From assembly GCA_944323785.1 (NCBI GenBank), contig CALUTU010000001.1, positions 118,484 to 182,483 of the forward strand: DNA of 64,000 nucleotides, written 5' to 3'. The stretch's first letter is position 1. Each line of letters opens with the position of its first letter. Positions 4,714 to 42,253 of this stretch are shown piece after piece. Source of the DNA: an uncultured Bacteroidales bacterium (GTDB lineage Bacteria; Bacteroidota; Bacteroidia; Bacteroidales; UBA932). The position numbers and the translations under genes are program-made. The notes beneath the pieces were generated by a model. That model searched no databases. It had not been told where the DNA came from and saw only the letters and a list, made by a program, of their open reading frames with translations.

Positions 4714-5988
4714 ATGTATTATAGAAAAAGAGCGGCAGACGCACTTCTTGCAAGGAAACTGGCAGGTAAAGGGGCTGTATTGATAGAAGGCCCAAAATGG
4801 TGCGGGAAAACGACCACTGCTGAACAGCAAGCGGCCAGCACCATCTATATGGATGATCCTCAGCATATTGAGCAGAATAAAATACGGGCGGATATCAATC
4901 CGTCACTGTTACTGCAAGGCAAGACTCCAAGGTTGATCGATGAATGGCAGATTGCTCCCAAGTTATGGGATGCTGTAAGATATGAGGCTGATCATAGAGA
5001 CGGAACAGGCCACTTCATATTGACCGGTTCATCCCTTCCCGTTGACAACAAGGATATTCAGCATTCCGGAACAGGACGTTTCGCTTGGCTCAGAATGCGC
5101 CCTATGGCATTGTACGAGTCTGGAGAATCTTCCGGAGATATAAGCCTGGAAGACCTGTTCTCAGCCCCCGGAAGCATCTATGCTGAAAATCGTCTTTCAA
5201 TGGAAGACATAGCGTTTCTGATATGCCGTGGCGGATGGCCGAAAGCCATTGACCAAAATAAAGACATCGCACTGGACCAGTCATTTGATTACTGCGATGC
5301 CATTACCAACAGGGATATATCCAAGGTAGACAACATCAACCGCAACCCAGAGCGTGTGAAAAGGCTTATGCGCTCATACGCACGCCTTCAAGGCTCACAG
5401 GCGTCTTACGAGACCATTTGCGCCGATATCAAATCCAATGACACAACCACATTGGACTCTGATACAGTTGCCGCATATATCACCGCTCTCGGCAGACTGT
5501 TTGTAATAGAGGAGGCGCAGGCATGGAATCCCAATCTAAGGTCAAAAACTGCAATACGTACTTCTGCCACAAGATACTATATTGATCCGTCAATAGGTAC
5601 GGCAATACTTCAGACAGGCCCGGAGGAACTTCTGGCAGACATCAAGACCATGGGACTTTTTTTCGAGACTTTATGTATGCGTGACCTGCGTACCTACGCA
5701 GAGGCACTTATGGGAACTGTATACCATTATCGTGACTCATCCGGGCTGGAATGTGATGCGGTGGTGCATCTGCGCAACGGCTCCTACGGTCTGGTAGAGA
5801 TAAAGCTGGGCGGCACACATCTTATATCCGAAGGATGCAGGACTCTTAAAACCCTAAGTGAGCGCATAGACACTGACAGAATGAAAGCCCCCTCATTCCT
5901 GATGGTTCTTACCGGAATCGGGGATATAGCTTACAGACGGAAAGAGGACGGCATCTACATTGTCCCCATCGGTTGCCTGAAGCAATAG
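4714..5988 (+). CDS. AAA+ ATPase with DUF4143 (nuclease-like) C-terminal domain
   Basis: A 424-residue member of the AAA_14/DUF4143 ATPases, which are numerous in gut Bacteroidales and have no settled function. The Walker A loop GPKWCGKT is at residues 26-33, a Walker B-type LIDEWQ at 74-79 and a sensor-like ILTGSS follows. The C-terminal part keeps a PD-(D/E)xK-like pattern: D348, E362 and K364 (EIK). It stands alone between opposing genes, behind a repeat-laden promoter, and its 3' end is 5 bp from a convergent exporter gene. Codon use is more AT-rich than in the flanking genes, which fits acquired DNA. A role in mobile-element or defence biology is speculation. Confidence 0.85.
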   Translation: MYYRKRAADALLARKLAGKGAVLIEGPKWCGKTTTAEQQAASTIYMDDPQHIEQNKIRADINPSLLLQGKTPRLIDEWQIAPKLWDAVRYEADHRDGTGHFILTGSSLPVDNKDIQHSGTGRFAWLRMRPMALYESGESSGDISLEDLFSAPGSIYAENRLSMEDIAFLICRGGWPKAIDQNKDIALDQSFDYCDAITNRDISKVDNINRNPERVKRLMRSYARLQGSQASYETICADIKSNDTTTLDSDTVAAYITALGRLFVIEEAQAWNPNLRSKTAIRTSATRYYIDPSIGTAILQTGPEELLADIKTMGLFFETLCMRDLRTYAEALMGTVYHYRDSSGLECDAVVHLRNGSYGLVEIKLGGTHLISEGCRTLKTLSERIDTDRMKAPSFLMVLTGIGDIAYRRKEDGIYIVPIGCLKQ

Positions 5989-5993
5989 CGGAA

Positions 5994-7373
5994 CTATCTG
6001 GAACGAAGACGGAGAAAGGAGAAGAAGGCGGCGCAGACGACCAGTATGCCGGCAAGGAGCATCGCGTCATGCGGAGCCTTGTCTCCGAAGAGGTGGAAGA
6101 ATAGGGCGACGAGAGCTGCGCCGGTGGCCTGGCCTGTCAGGCGGGCGGTGGAGAGCATGCCGCTTGCACTGCCGGCCCGGTGGTTGGGCGCGGAGCTCAG
6201 GAGCAGATGGTTGTTGGGCGACTGGAAGAATCCGAAACCGGCGCCGCAGAGGGCGAGTCTCCAGCCGAGGGCAAAGGGGGAGGCATCCGCCGGCATCTGC
6301 GAGAGCAGGAAGCAGCCGGCACTCATAAGCAGCAGACCGAAACCACCTAACAGGCCCGGGTGGATCTTGCCGCTCAGCGAGCCGGACAGAGGCGCCACGA
6401 ACATCACTATGAACGGCCAGGCGGTCATTACGGCACCGGTCTCCACGGGATTCATCCCGAAGGTATGCAGCAGCATGAAAGGCATACCGACCAGCACCAT
6501 CATCTGGGCCGTATAGGAGACAATGCTGGTGACCACCGACATGGAAAATGCCGGAATACGCAGCAGGTCAAAGGGCAGCATCGGGTATCTGCGGCGGAGC
6601 TGACTGCGGATATACAGGAAACCCAGTGCGAGCAGCACGGCAGCTGCCACAGCTACGACCGCAGGACTGACATCGTGCGAATACATCTCGATGCAGCCTA
6701 TGAGAAGGCCGAATACGGCGGCGTTGAGAAGGGCGTCCCCGACATGGAAACGGCGTCCGACGATATGAGTGGGATTGTCAGGGAGGAAACGCCACCCCAT
6801 CAGGAATGTCACTATCCCCACCGGGATATTGATGGCGAACAGCCATGGCCAGGAGGCGAAAGACAGTATGGCGGCCGCTATCGACGGACCGGACACGGCC
6901 GACAGGGCCACCACGGTAGCATTGATTCCCACCCCCTTGCCGAAATGCCGCCTGGGAAACACCAGTTTGGCCACGGAGGTATTGACACTCATCATCATCG
7001 CCGCCCCAAGCCCCTGGAATGCCCTGGATGCCACGAGCATAAGCAGACTGTGTGAAACCGTGCAGAAAACGGATGCCACCGTAAACACGGCCACTCCCGA
7101 CAGATACACTTTTTTATAGCTGTACAGCTCCCCGAGTGTCGAGAACGGCAGCAGGGCCATCATCACCACGAGCTGGAAAGCATTGACCACCCATATCGAA
7201 TCAGCAGGCGAGACACCGAGTCCCTGCGCTATCACCGGCAGGGCCACATTGCAGATATTGCCGTCCACCACCGACAGGAAGATGCCGCACCACACCGCGC
7301 CCATGGCATAGAAAAGCTGCGGCCTGTGCAGACCGTCCCACTCCAGATTGCCGGTGATCCTTTCTTCTTCCAT
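5994..7373 (-). CDS. DHA2-type MFS drug exporter, copy 1
   Basis: A 459-residue multidrug-type MFS antiporter of the inner membrane. It has the motif D-G-N-I-C-N-V-A-L-P in TM1, the antiporter motif C-like region (GPSIAAAI in TM5) and the FFQSPNN-HLLLSSAP segment late in the protein. The start at 7373 (MEEERIT) is preferred over an ATG at 7394, because a TACATTTG promoter element overlaps the latter. It is a close paralogue of the next gene upstream (7407-8804); the two share most residues over the first 100 positions. The 33-bp gap between them has its own promoter-like sequence. Confidence 0.88.
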   Translation of the reverse strand: MEEERITGNLEWDGLHRPQLFYAMGAVWCGIFLSVVDGNICNVALPVIAQGLGVSPADSIWVVNAFQLVVMMALLPFSTLGELYSYKKVYLSGVAVFTVASVFCTVSHSLLMLVASRAFQGLGAAMMMSVNTSVAKLVFPRRHFGKGVGINATVVALSAVSGPSIAAAILSFASWPWLFAINIPVGIVTFLMGWRFLPDNPTHIVGRRFHVGDALLNAAVFGLLIGCIEMYSHDVSPAVVAVAAAVLLALGFLYIRSQLRRRYPMLPFDLLRIPAFSMSVVTSIVSYTAQMMVLVGMPFMLLHTFGMNPVETGAVMTAWPFIVMFVAPLSGSLSGKIHPGLLGGFGLLLMSAGCFLLSQMPADASPFALGWRLALCGAGFGFFQSPNNHLLLSSAPNHRAGSASGMLSTARLTGQATGAALVALFFHLFGDKAPHDAMLLAGILVVCAAFFSFLRLRSR

Positions 7374-7391
7374 TTTACTGCGTGACTTCGG

Positions 7392-7399
7392 CAAATGTA
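7392..7399 (-). promoter_or_regulatory. -7 element before DHA2 exporter copy 1
   Basis: Minus-strand TACATTTG, about 19 bp before the start at 7373. The surrounding string CGGCAAATGTAC (plus strand) recurs before the paralogous gene at 8811-8821, so the promoter region was probably duplicated with the gene. Confidence 0.5.
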
Positions 7400-7406
7400 C
7401 GCAAAT

Positions 7407-8804
7407 TTACTTTACGGGAGAACGCAGCCCGAGGCGGCTGACAGAGGAAAGGGCGCCGCAGATGGTAAGAATGCCGGCCAGGAGCATGGCATCGTGGGGA
7501 GCACCGTCCCCGAAAAGATGGAAGAAGAGGGCGACGAGGGCCGCACCGGTGGACTGGCCTACGAGGCGGGCCGTTGCAAGCATGCCTCCCGCACTGCCGG
7601 CACGGTGGTTGGGCGCGGAACTCAGAAGCATGTGGTTGTTGGGCGACTGGAAGAAACCGAATCCGGCCCCGCACATCATCAGCCGCCATGCGATGTCCAG
7701 ATGCGAGGCATTCTCAGGAATAAATGCAAGCAGGAAACAGCCGGCACTCATCAGCAGCAGACCGAAACATCCCAGCACTCCGGGATGCACCCTGCCTATG
7801 AGCGAGCCGGCCAGCGGGGCCACGAACACGATGACCAGCGGCCAGGAAGTCATCAGCAGTCCGGTCTCTACGGCATTCATCCCGAAAGTATGCAGGAGCA
7901 TGAACGGTATGGCCACCATTGCCGTCATCTGGGCCGTGAAAGAGATGATACTGGTGAGCACCGACATCGAGAATACGGGGATACGGAGCAGGTCGAACGG
8001 CAGCATGGGCCAGCTGCGGCGGAGCTGGGTCCGCACGTAGATACTGCCCAGGACAACCAGCAGGGCGACCCCGACAAGCACCGTAACAGACTTCGCCCCG
8101 TGCGAATACATCTCGATGCAGCCTATCAGCAGGCCGAATACGGCGGCATTGAGCAGGCCGTCCCGGATATTGAAATGCCGTCCCTCGATGTGGGTAGGAT
8201 TGTCCGGCAGATGCTTGAATGCCATGAAGAACGTCACTATTCCCACCGGAATGTTGATTGCGAAGAGCCAGGGCCAGGAGGCGAACGAAAGAATACCTGC
8301 CGCAACCGTAGGACCGGCCACCGAGGCAAGGGCCACCACCGTGGCGTTAAGCCCCACTCCCCTGCCCAGGTACTTTTTGGGATAGGTGATTTTCACAAGA
8401 GTGGTATTGACACTCATCATCATCGCCGCACCCAGCCCCTGAAACGCCCTTGAGGCAACCAGGAGCGGCAGCGTATGCGACAGGGCGCAGAACAGCGAGC
8501 CGACGGTGAACAGCACCGTCCCCGAGACATACACCCGCTTGTAGCTCAGCAGCTCTCCGATGGAGGAAAACGACAGCAGGGTCATCATGATCACCAGCTG
8601 GAACGAGTTGACCACCCAGATGGAGTCCGCAGACGACACCCCCAGCTCCTGCGAGATGGTAGGCAGGGCCACATTGCAGATATTGCCGTCCATCACCGAG
8701 AGAAAAATCCCGCACCACAGCGAGGCCACCGCATAGTAAATCTTCGGGCGGGACAGACCGTCCCACTCCAGATTGCCGGTGATGTGCTCTGCATTATTAT
8801 TCAT
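7407..8804 (-). CDS. DHA2-type MFS drug exporter, copy 2
   Basis: A 465-residue paralogue of the neighbouring exporter, with the same ITGNLEWDG start region, the DGNICNVALP motif, the GPTVAAGILSF motif C-like helix and the FFQSPNNHMLLSSAP segment. It is expected to export small hydrophobic compounds by proton antiport; the substrate is unknown. The start at 8804 (MNNNAEH) is chosen because the longer frame from 8831 runs through a TACATTTG element at 8813-8820. That element leaves a leader of only a few nucleotides, so a promoter farther upstream remains possible. Confidence 0.88.
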   Translation of the reverse strand: MNNNAEHITGNLEWDGLSRPKIYYAVASLWCGIFLSVMDGNICNVALPTISQELGVSSADSIWVVNSFQLVIMMTLLSFSSIGELLSYKRVYVSGTVLFTVGSLFCALSHTLPLLVASRAFQGLGAAMMMSVNTTLVKITYPKKYLGRGVGLNATVVALASVAGPTVAAGILSFASWPWLFAINIPVGIVTFFMAFKHLPDNPTHIEGRHFNIRDGLLNAAVFGLLIGCIEMYSHGAKSVTVLVGVALLVVLGSIYVRTQLRRSWPMLPFDLLRIPVFSMSVLTSIISFTAQMTAMVAIPFMLLHTFGMNAVETGLLMTSWPLVIVFVAPLAGSLIGRVHPGVLGCFGLLLMSAGCFLLAFIPENASHLDIAWRLMMCGAGFGFFQSPNNHMLLSSAPNHRAGSAGGMLATARLVGQSTGAALVALFFHLFGDGAPHDAMLLAGILTICGALSSVSRLGLRSPVK

Positions 8805-8812
8805 AACGGCGG

Positions 8813-8820
8813 CAAATGTA
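8813..8820 (-). promoter_or_regulatory. -7-like element before DHA2 exporter copy 2
   Basis: Minus-strand TACATTTG in the same context as at 7392-7399. It ends 8 bp before the ATG, so a transcript from here would be almost leaderless. Confidence 0.4.
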
Positions 8821-8844
8821 CACAAAATCATGGCAATTGCTTAT

Positions 8845-8881
8845 AAATTCTTTCCATTGTTTTACAGATTGGAAAGAATTT
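8845..8881. promoter_or_regulatory. Inverted repeat 12-13-12 in the Fic promoter (operator candidate)
   Basis: The left arm 8845-8856 (AAATTCTTTCCA) and right arm 8870-8881 (TGGAAAGAATTT) are exact reverse complements over 12 bp with a 13-bp spacer. It occupies the space between the -33 and -7 regions of the Fic gene, a classic repressor position. The same architecture recurs at the end of the gene (10199-10235). Confidence 0.85.
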
Positions 8882-8883
8882 TC

Positions 8884-8891
8884 TATTTTTG
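8884..8891 (+). promoter_or_regulatory. -7 element of the Fic gene
   Basis: TATTTTTG (TAnnTTTG) directly follows the inverted repeat and precedes the chosen ATG at 8908 by 16 bp. Confidence 0.65.
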
Positions 8892-8907
8892 TAAAAATCT
8901 TAAAAGT

Positions 8908-10218
8908 ATGGAAAAAGCCCCTGACATACCTCAGCACAGCCTTCTTCAAGCCATTGTGGAACTACAGCAAGATAACGAGCTGCGTTCTTTTATAGAAGAC
9001 TTGAATGATGAATACGGATATTGGGATAGAATAAAGTATATCAGAAATTCTTTCCACAAGTCTCCGAATGAGTTATGGGCTCTGATAAAAGCCCAGAGAT
9101 TCATTTCCAACGTATCTGTCAAAAATTGGGGAAAATACAATATCCACTTCGCATTGACCGACAGAATGCAGCGGCAATGTCATTCTTTTGATATAAACTT
9201 CGGGGGAAGATGGGAGTATGAAACCACTATACCTGAAAAAACAAAGGAACGGTATCTTATAAGTTCCCTTATGGAAGAGGCCATATCTTCAAGTATGATG
9301 GAAGGAGCTTCTACAACACGCAGGATAGCCAAGGAAATGCTGCGCAAGAAAATGTCCCCCGCTGATAAGTCCCAGCAGATGATTTTCAACAACTATGAGA
9401 CAATTCAGTTTATCGTCACGCATAAGTCGGAGCCGCTTACAACAGAACTGCTGCTTCAGGTTCACCGGCTGATGACTGACAGCACGCTGGACAATCCTGA
9501 AGATTCCGGCCGGTTCCGTCAAAATGACCAGGTCGTCGTGGAGAATGCCATTACCCATGAGATTGTACACACACCTCCGACATATACAGAACTGCCTCAT
9601 TTCATGGAAACATTGTGTGATTTTTTCAACAACCATGAATCCAGACCATATATCCACCCTATCATAAAAGGAATTATCATCCATTACATGATTGCATACA
9701 TGCATCCGTTCGTTGACGGTAACGGACGGACTGCACGGGCAATCTTTTACTGGTATATGCTGCGTCAGGGTTATTGGCTGATGGAATATCTGTCAATATC
9801 CCGCATCATTTACCGCTCCAAACCCTTTTACGAAAAATCCTTTCTGTACGCGGAAATCGAGAACAATGATCTGGGCTATTTCATAACATACCATATGAGA
9901 GTTCTCGAGTTGGCATTCAGGGATATGCAGGAATACATAAAAAGAAAGACCAAAGAGCGGGAAGCCGCTCATCAATATCTGGGGAAGTCAGGCATCAACG
10001 AAAGACAAGCTGAAATCATAAAGATGTTTGATGACAATCCGAATGAGGTTATGACTGTAAAAGATGTCCAGGTCAAGTTCAGAATAACTCCCACAACTGC
10101 AAAATCTGACATCATCAAGCTTGTACGGCTCGGATTATTGAAAGAAATTGCCGTGAACAAGGTAAAAAGGGCATATATCAAAAGCGATTCCTTTGAGCAG
10201 ATTCTTTCCAATTTATAA
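8908..10218 (+). CDS. Fic-domain AMPylase with C-terminal winged-helix
   Basis: A 436-residue Fic enzyme expected to transfer a nucleotide monophosphate, usually AMP, to a hydroxyl on a target protein. The canonical active site HPFVDGNGRTAR starts at H266. An inhibitory-helix motif SxMMEG (E132, G133) lies N-terminal to the Fic core, marking a self-inhibited class II protein. The last 65 residues look like a winged helix-turn-helix (NERQAEIIKMF..VKDVQVKFRITPTTAKSDI), so the protein could bind DNA and control itself. The start at 8908 is set by the promoter at 8884-8891. The left arm of the second inverted repeat overlaps the last codons (EQILSNL). The gene is clearly more AT-rich than the flanking genes. 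Confidence 0.9.
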   Translation: MEKAPDIPQHSLLQAIVELQQDNELRSFIEDLNDEYGYWDRIKYIRNSFHKSPNELWALIKAQRFISNVSVKNWGKYNIHFALTDRMQRQCHSFDINFGGRWEYETTIPEKTKERYLISSLMEEAISSSMMEGASTTRRIAKEMLRKKMSPADKSQQMIFNNYETIQFIVTHKSEPLTTELLLQVHRLMTDSTLDNPEDSGRFRQNDQVVVENAITHEIVHTPPTYTELPHFMETLCDFFNNHESRPYIHPIIKGIIIHYMIAYMHPFVDGNGRTARAIFYWYMLRQGYWLMEYLSISRIIYRSKPFYEKSFLYAEIENNDLGYFITYHMRVLELAFRDMQEYIKRKTKEREAAHQYLGKSGINERQAEIIKMFDDNPNEVMTVKDVQVKFRITPTTAKSDIIKLVRLGLLKEIAVNKVKRAYIKSDSFEQILSNL

Positions 10219-10235
10219 AATAATGGAAAGAATCT
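10199..10235. promoter_or_regulatory. Second copy of the 12-13-12 inverted repeat
   Basis: Arms AGATTCTTTCCA (10199-10210) and TGGAAAGAATCT (10224-10235) are perfectly complementary, with the same 13-bp spacer as the copy at 8845-8881 and the same 10-bp core ATTCTTTCCA. It spans the Fic stop codon and lies about 30 bp before the -7 element of the next gene, so it could control that gene too. A single half-site, ATTCTTTCCA, also occurs inside the Fic gene at 9047-9056. Confidence 0.85.
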
Positions 10236-10264
10236 CAAAAATTTTTCATTTGCTTCGAAATCCA

Positions 10265-10272
10265 TATATTTG
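10265..10272 (+). promoter_or_regulatory. -7 element of the M49-peptidase operon
   Basis: TATATTTG, 25 bp before the ATG at 10298. A T-run at 10242-10246 lies at the expected -33 spacing. Confidence 0.6.
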
Positions 10273-13816: not shown

Positions 13817-13836
13817 GAAGAACTTGTCTATTTTTG
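13806..13836 (+). promoter_or_regulatory. Promoter of the second DUF4143 ATPase gene
   Basis: TTTG at 13806-13809 (inside the third repeat unit), 19 bp, then TATTTTTG at 13829-13836: an ideal Bacteroidota -33/-7 pair. Transcription should start near 13843, so the gene starts at 13855 or 13858 and not at the earlier TTG. Confidence 0.75.
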
Positions 13837-13854
13837 CATAGACAAATATCTGTA

Positions 13855-15195
13855 ATGATGGCAAATAGGGTTTTTAAAAGGAAAATCTACGACAGGCTGC
13901 TTCAGTGGAAACAGGAGTCAGGCGGAACAAGCGCCGCTCTGATACAAGGAGCAAAACGTATCGGTAAGTCGACAATCGTAGAGGAATTCGCGAAAAATGA
14001 ATACTCCTCATACCTGCTGATTGACTTCAACAGGGCCTCCGCCGATGTAAAAGCCCTGTTCGATGACCTGACGGACCTGGATTTCATTTTCCTCCAGCTG
14101 CAGACCATATACCGTGTCGTACTGGAAAGACGCAGGTCAGTCATCATCTTCGATGAGGTGCAGAAATGCCCCAAAGCCCGCGAGGCGATCAAATACCTCG
14201 TTCAGGACGGAAGATATGACTACATCGAGACCGGCTCCCTCATCAGTATCAGGAAAAATACAAAAAACATCACCATCCCGAGCGAGGAGGAACGCATGGA
14301 CATGTATCCTATGGACTTCGAGGAATTCAGGTGGGCCATGGGCGATACCGCGTCAGTCCCCCTTATCCGGACCTTCTTTGAAAAGCGGATGCCGCTGGGT
14401 GCCGCACACAGATCCATGCAGAGAGACCTGCGGCTGTATATGCTGGTGGGAGGTATGCCGCAGGCCGTCAATGAATATCTGGAGACAAACAATCTCGCGA
14501 AGGTAGACGCCGCAAAGAGACGTATCATCCAGCTCTATTCCGAGGACTTCCTCAAAATAGACGCCACAGGCAGGCTGAGCAGACTGTTCATGTCCATTCC
14601 CGCCCAGCTGAGCAGGAAAACCTCCCGGTACTACATGAGTGCAGTAGTAGGAAGTGTGGACAACGACAAAGAAGAGGAAATGCTCGTCAGTCTCGAAGAC
14701 AGCAAGGCCGTCCTGGTATCATATCATTCCGATGACCCTAACGTGGGCCTGTCGCTGACAAAAGACACCTCCAGATATAAACTGTTCGCCGCGGACACCG
14801 GCCTGTTCGTCACGATGGCTTTTTGGGACAAAGGCTTTGCGGAGAACATCATCTATCAGAAACTGCTGTCCGACAAGCTGGAGGCCAATCTCGGATATCT
14901 TTACGAGAATCTTGTGGCGCAGATGCTTACCGCGGCAGGCAATCAGCTGTTCTACTATACTTTCGAAAAAGACGACAAGCACTTCTATGAAATAGACTTC
15001 ATGCTGACGAGAGGCAGCAAGATATGCCCTGTCGAAGTAAAGTCCTCAGGCTACATGACCCACGCCTCCCTCGACGCCTTCAGGAAGAAATACCAGACCC
15101 GGATACAGAACAGTTATGTACTCTATACCAAGGACCTGCAGAAAGGCGAGAGCGGGCTGCTGTATCTGCCGGTGTACATGACGCCGGTGCTGTAG
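13855..15195 (+). CDS. AAA+ ATPase with DUF4143 C-terminal domain
   Basis: 446 residues, of the same broad family as the gene at 4714 but of a different subtype. Walker A GAKRIGKST is at 32-40 and Walker B IIFDE at 97-101, followed by the sensor-like ETGSLIS. The C-terminal domain has the PD-(D/E)xK-like residues E379/D381 and E394-V-K396. Two adjacent in-frame ATGs (13855 and 13858) follow the promoter; either may serve. The stop codon directly abuts the stop of the convergent Rpn-type gene. A 200-bp copy of its 3' part lies 1.3 kb downstream. The cellular role of the family is unsettled. Confidence 0.87.
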   Translation: MMANRVFKRKIYDRLLQWKQESGGTSAALIQGAKRIGKSTIVEEFAKNEYSSYLLIDFNRASADVKALFDDLTDLDFIFLQLQTIYRVVLERRRSVIIFDEVQKCPKAREAIKYLVQDGRYDYIETGSLISIRKNTKNITIPSEEERMDMYPMDFEEFRWAMGDTASVPLIRTFFEKRMPLGAAHRSMQRDLRLYMLVGGMPQAVNEYLETNNLAKVDAAKRRIIQLYSEDFLKIDATGRLSRLFMSIPAQLSRKTSRYYMSAVVGSVDNDKEEEMLVSLEDSKAVLVSYHSDDPNVGLSLTKDTSRYKLFAADTGLFVTMAFWDKGFAENIIYQKLLSDKLEANLGYLYENLVAQMLTAAGNQLFYYTFEKDDKHFYEIDFMLTRGSKICPVEVKSSGYMTHASLDAFRKKYQTRIQNSYVLYTKDLQKGESGLLYLPVYMTPVL

Positions 15196-41464: not shown

Positions 41465-42253
41465 ATGGAGTACTTTGTCACCTGTAGCGGGATTCCGGTA
41501 CATGTCTCTGAGACAGGATCAGGTGACAAAGCAGTAGTTTTGCTCCACGGTTATCTCGAAACATTGTATATATGGGAAGACTTCAGGGCTCTTTTTCCTG
41601 AGTCTTCCCATATTATTTCTATCGATCTTCCAGGCCTCGGACTCTCCGGTTCGGCACCTGAGGTCAATTCCATGCAATACGATGCCATGGTTCTCGTGTC
41701 CCTTTTCGACAAGTTGTCTATTTCCAAAGCTCTGATAATAGGGCATTCCATGGGTGGATACGTCGGGCAGCGCTTTCTGAGAGATTATCCTGACCGTATA
41801 TCTGCCTTGGTCAATGTCAATTCCAATCCTTATGCCGATGATCCCCTAAAGGTAAAGGACAGGGAAAAGGAGATATCCTTCATACTTAATGGAAAACTGG
41901 TTCAGTTGGCGCAGATAGCCATTCCGAACATGTATTCCAAGGCAAATCTAAGGAATTGCGATGATAAGGTTGCGGAAACAGTCGAAATCTGCGAAACACA
42001 TGACCCGGAAGGGGTTGCTGCAGTCGTCAGGGGATTAATGACACGTGATGACAATGTAGCTCTTCTCTCGTCCGCTAAAGTACCTGTGATGTTCATATAC
42101 GGTGATTCGGACGTATATGCGCCCTTATCCCGGATTCAGCAGATCATGAATGATTTACCCGGTTGCCGTCATGAAATCGTACCCGGTACAGGACATAATA
42201 CCCACGTAGAGAATCCCAGGGCAGTCTACGACTTGGTTTCTTCGCTGCTGTAG
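41465..42253 (+). CDS. Alpha/beta hydrolase
   Basis: 262 residues with no signal peptide. HGYLETLYIWEDF is the oxyanion-hole HG motif, GHSMGG (S95) the nucleophile elbow, D-S-D (VMFIYGDSDVYAP) the acid strand, and GTGHNTHVE holds the catalytic His (H244). It is a generic esterase/lipase-like fold; the substrate is unknown. It starts 5 bp after frdB and may be cotranscribed with it. The 3' end overlaps the convergent hflX by 28 bp. Confidence 0.88.
   Translation: MEYFVTCSGIPVHVSETGSGDKAVVLLHGYLETLYIWEDFRALFPESSHIISIDLPGLGLSGSAPEVNSMQYDAMVLVSLFDKLSISKALIIGHSMGGYVGQRFLRDYPDRISALVNVNSNPYADDPLKVKDREKEISFILNGKLVQLAQIAIPNMYSKANLRNCDDKVAETVEICETHDPEGVAAVVRGLMTRDDNVALLSSAKVPVMFIYGDSDVYAPLSRIQQIMNDLPGCRHEIVPGTGHNTHVENPRAVYDLVSSLL

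Follow-up and report, generated by a model that had tools for sequence, protein, structure and literature searches.

The closest described systems are the Fic proteins CccR, SoFic and CbFic2. CccR of Yersinia pseudotuberculosis is a Fic protein with a C-terminal helix-turn-helix, which represses its own gene via an inverted repeat. Its operator consists of two 10-bp boxes with a 26-bp spacer, located near the -35 and -10 elements, and the protein is described as an effector of the T6SS (PMC9755527). SoFic and EcSofic are anti-phage Fic proteins (PMC12249575); PMC10628234 notes that SoFic had not been demonstrated to bind DNA. In the same paper, CbFic2 is described as carrying a winged helix that was predicted to be of the DeoR type, and the binding of DNA led to dimerization and altered activity of the enzyme (PMC10628234).

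The window, that is, the whole stretch of 64,000 nucleotides that was analyzed, contains a fic gene with a copy of one inverted repeat at each end (IR1 and IR2). The coordinates of these features are given in Table 1. The elements TATTTTTG and TATATTTG are presumably -7 boxes, as we judge from the Bacteroidota-type consensus.

Table 1. Positions in the window of fic, its two inverted repeats and the promoter elements presumed nearby.
Feature	Position	Strand	Remarks
IR1, promoter inverted repeat 12-13-12	8845..8881		predicted main operator; counterparts in homologs
Presumed fic promoter -7 box TATTTTTG	8884..8891	+	starts 2 bp past IR1; promoter predicted
fic gene, 436 aa	8908..10218	+	N-terminal domain without Pfam match, residues ~1-110
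Single half-site within fic	9045..9056	+	judged chance
Region encoding the C-terminal winged helix, residues ~360-430	9985..10197	+	AlphaFold2 model; covariation
Recognition helix PTTAKSDIIKLVR	residues 395-407	+	AlphaFold2 model; covariation
IR2, inverted repeat spanning the fic stop codon	10199..10235		predicted second operator; copy of IR1, here inverted
Presumed -7 box TATATTTG, M49 peptidase gene downstream of fic	10265..10272	+	consensus match

Both repeats, with perfect 12-bp arms and 13-bp spacers, were found where an earlier note on this DNA had placed them. IR2 crosses the fic stop codon (10216-10218) and precedes the next promoter, as had been claimed, with 29 bp between the repeat and the presumed -7 box of the M49 gene. 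The claim that IR1 lies between the -33 and -7 regions was not quite right: the repeat stops 2 bp before the -7 box, so that the presumed -33 region falls within it. In the source genome (1.97 Mb in 36 contigs, 87% complete), the pattern ATTCTTTCCA-N11-15-TGGAAAGAAT occurs just at IR1 and IR2. A search of the window for perfect 12-bp arms with a spacer of up to 25 bp returned IR1, IR2 and one unrelated place (41570-41571, in two registers). This further perfect repeat spans 41570-41613, has a spacer of 18 or 20 bp depending on the register, and is unrelated in sequence to IR1 and IR2. The observed repeat score was matched by 1 of 1000 dinucleotide shuffles for the IR1 region and by 7 of 1000 for the IR2 region, and since one 10-bp core is common to both repeats, a chance origin is less likely still. 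IR2 matches the reverse complement of IR1 at 87% over 38 nt and IR1 read directly at 79% over 33 nt. The half-site reported within the gene (9047-9056) is present but not conserved, being kept in three of five close copies and broken in the other two. It is therefore probably a chance match, and we rejected it as a member of an operator array.

The Fic active-site motif HxFx(D/E)GNGRxxR is found in the protein as HPFVDGNGRTAR at residues 266-277. Its H, F, D, GNGR and last R are invariant across 47 aligned rows, and the Pfam Fic domain (PF02661) covers residues 176-283 with a score of 67.8 bits (cut-off 24). The inhibitory motif (S/T)xxxE(G/N) is present in the N-terminal part as SSMMEG (residues 128-133), which places the protein in class II; S128, S129, E132 and G133 are invariant across the 47 rows. 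In the AlphaFold2 model, with a mean pLDDT of 88.7 (82-89 in the winged-helix blocks), helices 365-376, 384-391 and 395-407 and strands 411-415 and 421-425 make up a predicted C-terminal winged helix. The combination of an intact active site, an inhibitory motif and a winged helix that had been read from the sequence was thus recovered, the winged helix as a prediction. The top five Foldseek matches were chains of Shewanella SoFic (3zcn/3zec/3eqx), followed by 7xux. The PADLOC SoFic model, which gives no cut-off, matched at 1.7e-46, and the NCBIfam SoFic equivalog reached 66.5 bits, far under its cut-off of 550. Taken together, the motifs and models suggest a self-inhibited Fic of class II, SoFic-like and ending in a winged helix, whose activity would be AMPylation. 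The gene is AT-rich, as claimed, with a GC content of 0.422 against 0.600 and 0.578 for its neighbors.

Close copies of the gene (96-99%) were found in four more genomes of the same genus, and a fifth (G167) shows the 3' end at a contig end; one close copy belongs to a record of Candidatus Coprenecus merdigallinarum. A homolog is present in 14 of 299 genomes of the family (E to 1e-40) and in 21 of 393 genomes of the order (E to 1e-60), the source genome counted in both. Scanning the genome contigs yielded 24 loci, which fall in Bacteroidota, Spirochaetota and Cyanobacteriota. Plasmids were considered as carriers and rejected, as all 16 records found in the plasmid collection are below 37% identity. 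Phages were rejected as well: the phage collection gave two records, one of them a 5-kb unverified fecal scaffold at 55%, and the viral contig scan found no fic homolog. This scaffold, L080 (MT840011.1, labelled 'bacteriophage'), carries a fic gene of the same family together with both repeats and may be a bacterial piece.

The promoter repeat recurs in homologs. An upstream inverted repeat with a score of at least 10 was found for 33 of 45 fic genes, compared with 5 of 58 non-fic genes in these loci; with a score of at least 9, the counts were 40/45 and 7/58, and L012 is among the 45 with a score that comes from an unrelated repeat, its operator-like repeat lying ~250 bp upstream. The five fic genes below 9 are L022, L023, L035, L062 and L072. 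Among 49 rows with a scored repeat, a TAnnTTTG-type -7 box lies -5 to +14 bp from the repeat edge in 32 and farther away in three; none was found in 14, four of which are spirochaetes. The TTTCC core is kept by many relatives of 53-60% identity in several families, with small changes or with one good arm only in L022, L023 and L062. Other cores occur in L063, L066 and L068, which are of similar identity, and in most of the more distant relatives. No comparable upstream repeat was found in three cyanobacterial rows, with just a GC-rich terminator-like hairpin in L040, nor in three of four plasmid homologs (both gammaproteobacterial ones and one of the two from Bacteroidota). The comparison of flanks in related genomes, which the earlier note had proposed, thus shows the promoter repeat in most fic genes of Bacteroidota and Spirochaetota, but not in the minority formed by the five low-scoring, the cyanobacterial and the three plasmid genes.

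The second repeat is less constant. For each locus, 120 bp upstream of fic was compared with the segment from -50 to +80 bp around the stop codon. A copy of the locus's own IR1 reached a score of at least 20 in 23 of 45 loci, and in 15 of 45 it exceeded the 99th percentile of mismatched pairs. The window locus scored 28, a value that 1 of 80 mismatched pairs attains, whereas L019, L022 and L032 are weak among the 23 (equalled by 5/80, 18/88 and 7/88 mismatched pairs, respectively). When presence was labelled by eye, IR2 was found in 27 of 51 tree rows and was missing from 24, including four (L038-L040 and L079) that also have no clear IR1; on the tree, these labels require about 10 changes, at least six of which are forced by supported branches. 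Because it was gained or lost repeatedly, IR2 appears to be dispensable, and an essential role is also disfavored, as half of the loci lack it. The orientation of IR2 relative to IR1 is not fixed; both direct and inverted copies occur, and the window locus has an inverted one. The duplicated flank is longer than the 35-bp palindrome in L078 (57 bp) and L068 (43 bp), and the upstream repeat of L012 includes an apparent copy of the last codons of the fic gene.

Where the core of the repeat differs between lineages, the recognition helix largely differs with it. All 17 rows with the TTTCC core have the helix xTTAKxDI, five of them being near-identical and three (L022, L023 and L062) having imperfect or half repeats. 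The helix KTxRxDL was found in 10/10 rows with the GGGAAATT core, and MTAR[KR]DL in 4/4 rows with CTTGC. The six shared cores require five changes on the tree, which is the minimum, and each of 300 shuffles required at least 15; in this count, nine rows with unique cores were excluded, the core labels were assigned by eye, the tree was built with the winged helix included, and the related sequences are not independent. The match is not one to one. L031 has a helix of the CTTGC class, MTARKDL, together with a GATAATT core; NQTARTDL occurs with two core labels; and L014 (NHMARIYL) deviates from the helix of its class, sharing one label with L078 (NQTARTDL). The exact TTTCC-type repeat was located at six sites, spread over 5 of the 393 order genomes. 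In four of the five genomes it lies beside a member of the same fic family, and four of the six sites adjoin fic genes with the TTTCC core (two in G000, one each in G376 and G597). A search of 386 genomes for the GGGAAATT pattern gave three sites; two precede their own fic, and the third (G304) is terminator-like.

The surroundings of fic vary widely. Judged from neighboring genes that are longest-ORF guesses named by eye, hsdM precedes and hsdS follows fic in several loci, and groEL-like or rseP-like genes are found elsewhere. In the window, two tandem MFS transporter genes lie upstream on the minus strand (5994-8831), the first recognized by eye and the second DHA2/EmrB-like, below cut-off. 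Two AAA_14/DUF4143 genes flank the region at 4714-5988 and 13834-15195, and the first of them matched the PADLOC candidate PDC-S01 at 2.8e-60. Between the repeats, fic is the only gene judged real, with no transposase or recombinase, and no target duplication was seen by eye at the fic unit.

Left edges were compared in 12 pairs of related fic loci, three of which share further left flank. In six of the nine pairs with different left flanks, homology stops no more than 5 bp from the outer border of IR1 (in the first member), the pairs not all being independent, as L066/L067/L030 and L073 were used twice. The clearest cases are L066/L067, 94.6% identical and with different neighbors, in which the edge is at 3 bp, and L003/L019, with the edge also at 3 bp, where type III restriction-modification genes adjoin IR1 in one locus and an MFS gene in the other. 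The exceptions are L073/L074 (10 bp outside), L035/L036 (inside IR1) and L075/L076 (41 bp past it). Homology between G046 and G000 starts at 8842, 3 bp ahead of IR1, and in G000 the MFS gene directly precedes the repeat. In G046 (L114, 1752-6658), a Res-Mod pair, probably a type III restriction-modification system (Res by eye), lies between the MFS gene and IR1. On the right, the edge was bracketed to ~10236-10265 in the source genus, and several fic-less sisters are homologous from ~10265-10272.

In the sister G159, the MFS and M49 genes are adjacent, with neither fic nor repeat, and among the fic-less sister sites, no empty site carrying the repeat was found. Three fic-less sisters, G141, G098 and G197 (L049, L051 and L053), have a broken-RhuM-like fragment (by eye) at the place of fic, upstream of M49. 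At a radical-SAM site in another genus, fic is present in 2 of 12 matched genomes, in two types, and the flank is variable; in L085, hsdM and hsdS are joined without fic, and the two genes overlap. Repeats were also seen at other positions. In L058 (1501-1533, G581), a TTTCC-type repeat directly follows hsdM, ahead of a fic gene with another core. In L061 (1501-1532, G444), such a repeat precedes a rhuM-like gene by 24 bp, and its other flank holds only a distant Fic (22%). An orphan fic-type repeat precedes hsdS in L081 (1981-2017) and L082. An orphan AGGGGAAA-type repeat is found 3' of gpmI (by eye) in L088 (1502-1538), L089 (1504-1540) and L091 (1506-1542), with no fic match inside these 3-kb loci; these repeats may be scars or something else. 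The varied contexts, often restriction-modification loci, and the orphan repeats found in them make horizontal spread of the gene likely.

We consider it likely that the Fic protein represses its own gene through its winged helix on IR1, that IR2 is an optional second operator, and that the whole is a compact, spreading unit. The proposal rests on what was observed in the sequences, namely the repeats, their recurrence in homologs, their covariation with the recognition helix, the end of homology near IR1 in most of the pairs compared and the varied contexts; from these, we infer binding, repression, dimerization, AMPylation and a role in defense. The idea that the Fic protein itself would bind the repeat rests mainly on the covariation of core and helix, and self-regulation through the winged helix, the central idea of the earlier note, is well supported at the level of comparison, given also the presence of the promoter repeat across genera. 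The protein would bind presumably as a dimer, with one winged helix per arm. On IR1, it would cover the DNA just upstream of the -7 box and switch off its own promoter, which may keep a potentially harmful enzyme at a low cellular level. IR2 would most likely aid repression by extra local binding and possibly by a gene loop or a block to read-through. The unit of IR1 and fic, with or without IR2, would move between genomes, often into restriction-modification loci, and such spread fits a putative role in phage defense.

The repeats can also be read as the ends of a mobile unit, inserted, excised or exchanged by recombination, that serve as operators at the same time, the loss of the unit leaving one repeat behind. 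The earlier note had suggested such movement, and the left edges at IR1, the varied contexts and the adjacent MFS and M49 genes of G159 agree with it. So do the repeated flanks beyond the palindrome in L078 and L068, the copied last codons in L012 and the orphan repeats at sites often occupied by fic or related genes (L058, L061 and L081/L082). Together, the edges, flanks and orphan repeats make this reading plausible, yet we hold it to be rather doubtful. The three exceptional pairs have edges off the IR1 boundary and the pairs are partly non-independent, while at 75-77% identity homology would stop at the last constrained element anyway. L066/L067, one of the clearest pairs, has no IR2, and its right edge lies before the stop codon. 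Moreover, no mobilizing enzyme, no circle and no empty site with a repeat were found, IR2 is absent from about half of the loci, and its orientation is mixed. A more elaborate version, which we put forward as speculation and regard as unlikely, is that Bacteroidota and Spirochaetota have single-gene defense cassettes whose operator is also their boundary, each lineage with its own repeat and winged helix and with the repeat at one or both ends. Such units would swap at joints of the hsdM/hsdS type, leaving single repeats, and occupancy of the operator could restrain the enzyme until a phage disturbs the host DNA.

The remaining readings concern the function of IR2 and the identity of the regulator. 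If IR2 were an operator of the downstream gene, Fic would control its neighbor, as the earlier note had considered. This is possible for the M49 gene of the window, given the short distance to its presumed -7 box, and IR2 is located just before hsdS in some hsdM-fic-hsdS loci (L022 and L064); other loci of this arrangement (L030, L031 and L065), however, have no IR2, and several loci that do have IR2 place the next long ORF on the opposite strand or at a distance of over 150 bp. An apparent terminator follows IR2 in L024 and L029. The variety of neighbors speaks against control of the next gene as a general role of IR2, and we think this explanation improbable. Still less probable is that IR2 forms an RNA hairpin or terminates transcription. 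As RNA, its stretch has a folding energy of -15.2 kcal/mol (z -3.6; equalled by 1 of 200 shuffles), but the promoter repeat stretch folds equally well (z -4.0), so that folding seems to accompany any such repeat; the loop has 13 nt, no T-run directly follows IR2, and the core covaries with the protein. IR2 as a terminator was thus judged unlikely. It is equally hard to believe that another regulator binds the repeats and that fic is a mere target gene, since the recognition helix and the core covary across lineages and the exact TTTCC-type repeat accompanies the same fic family in most of the few genomes that have it. Self-repression by the Fic protein on IR1, with IR2 as an optional second operator, is the reading that we prefer.

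The protein class and the type of control are known, and no description of fic genes bracketed by repeats was found in the open PMC literature (titles and starts of abstracts). What appears to be new is that lineage-specific paired operators, as predicted, bracket fic and coincide with the edge of the shared DNA in most pairs. From the analysis, operators can be predicted for a group of class II Fic proteins, along with a tentative code for the recognition helix, and self-regulation of SoFic-like genes becomes open to direct tests. The comparison further suggests a compact fic unit that spreads horizontally, often lies in restriction-modification loci and, in about half of the examined loci, has a second copy of its operator at the 3' end.

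The protein resembles CbFic2 in being a class II Fic that carries a winged helix, here a predicted one. CbFic2 was assayed with random DNA, and the CbFic2 sections available to us describe no operator (PMC10628234). With SoFic, the present protein shares class II membership and a C-terminal domain, and SoFic provides the nearest PADLOC model and the top Foldseek matches; the identity is 18-19% (Foldseek). EcSofic has a 47-residue antitoxin, AS1, encoded downstream (PMC12249575), and ORFs were considered here from 80 aa up. CccR is, like the present protein, a class II Fic with a C-terminal DNA-binding domain (here a predicted winged helix) and an inverted repeat in its own promoter. The locus differs from CccR in its 12-13-12 repeat, in a further copy that many lineages have at the stop codon, and in the longer N-terminal part of the protein; the CccR text describes one operator region (PMC9755527). 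By analogy with the CccR precedent, the same self-repression would be the most likely mechanism here.
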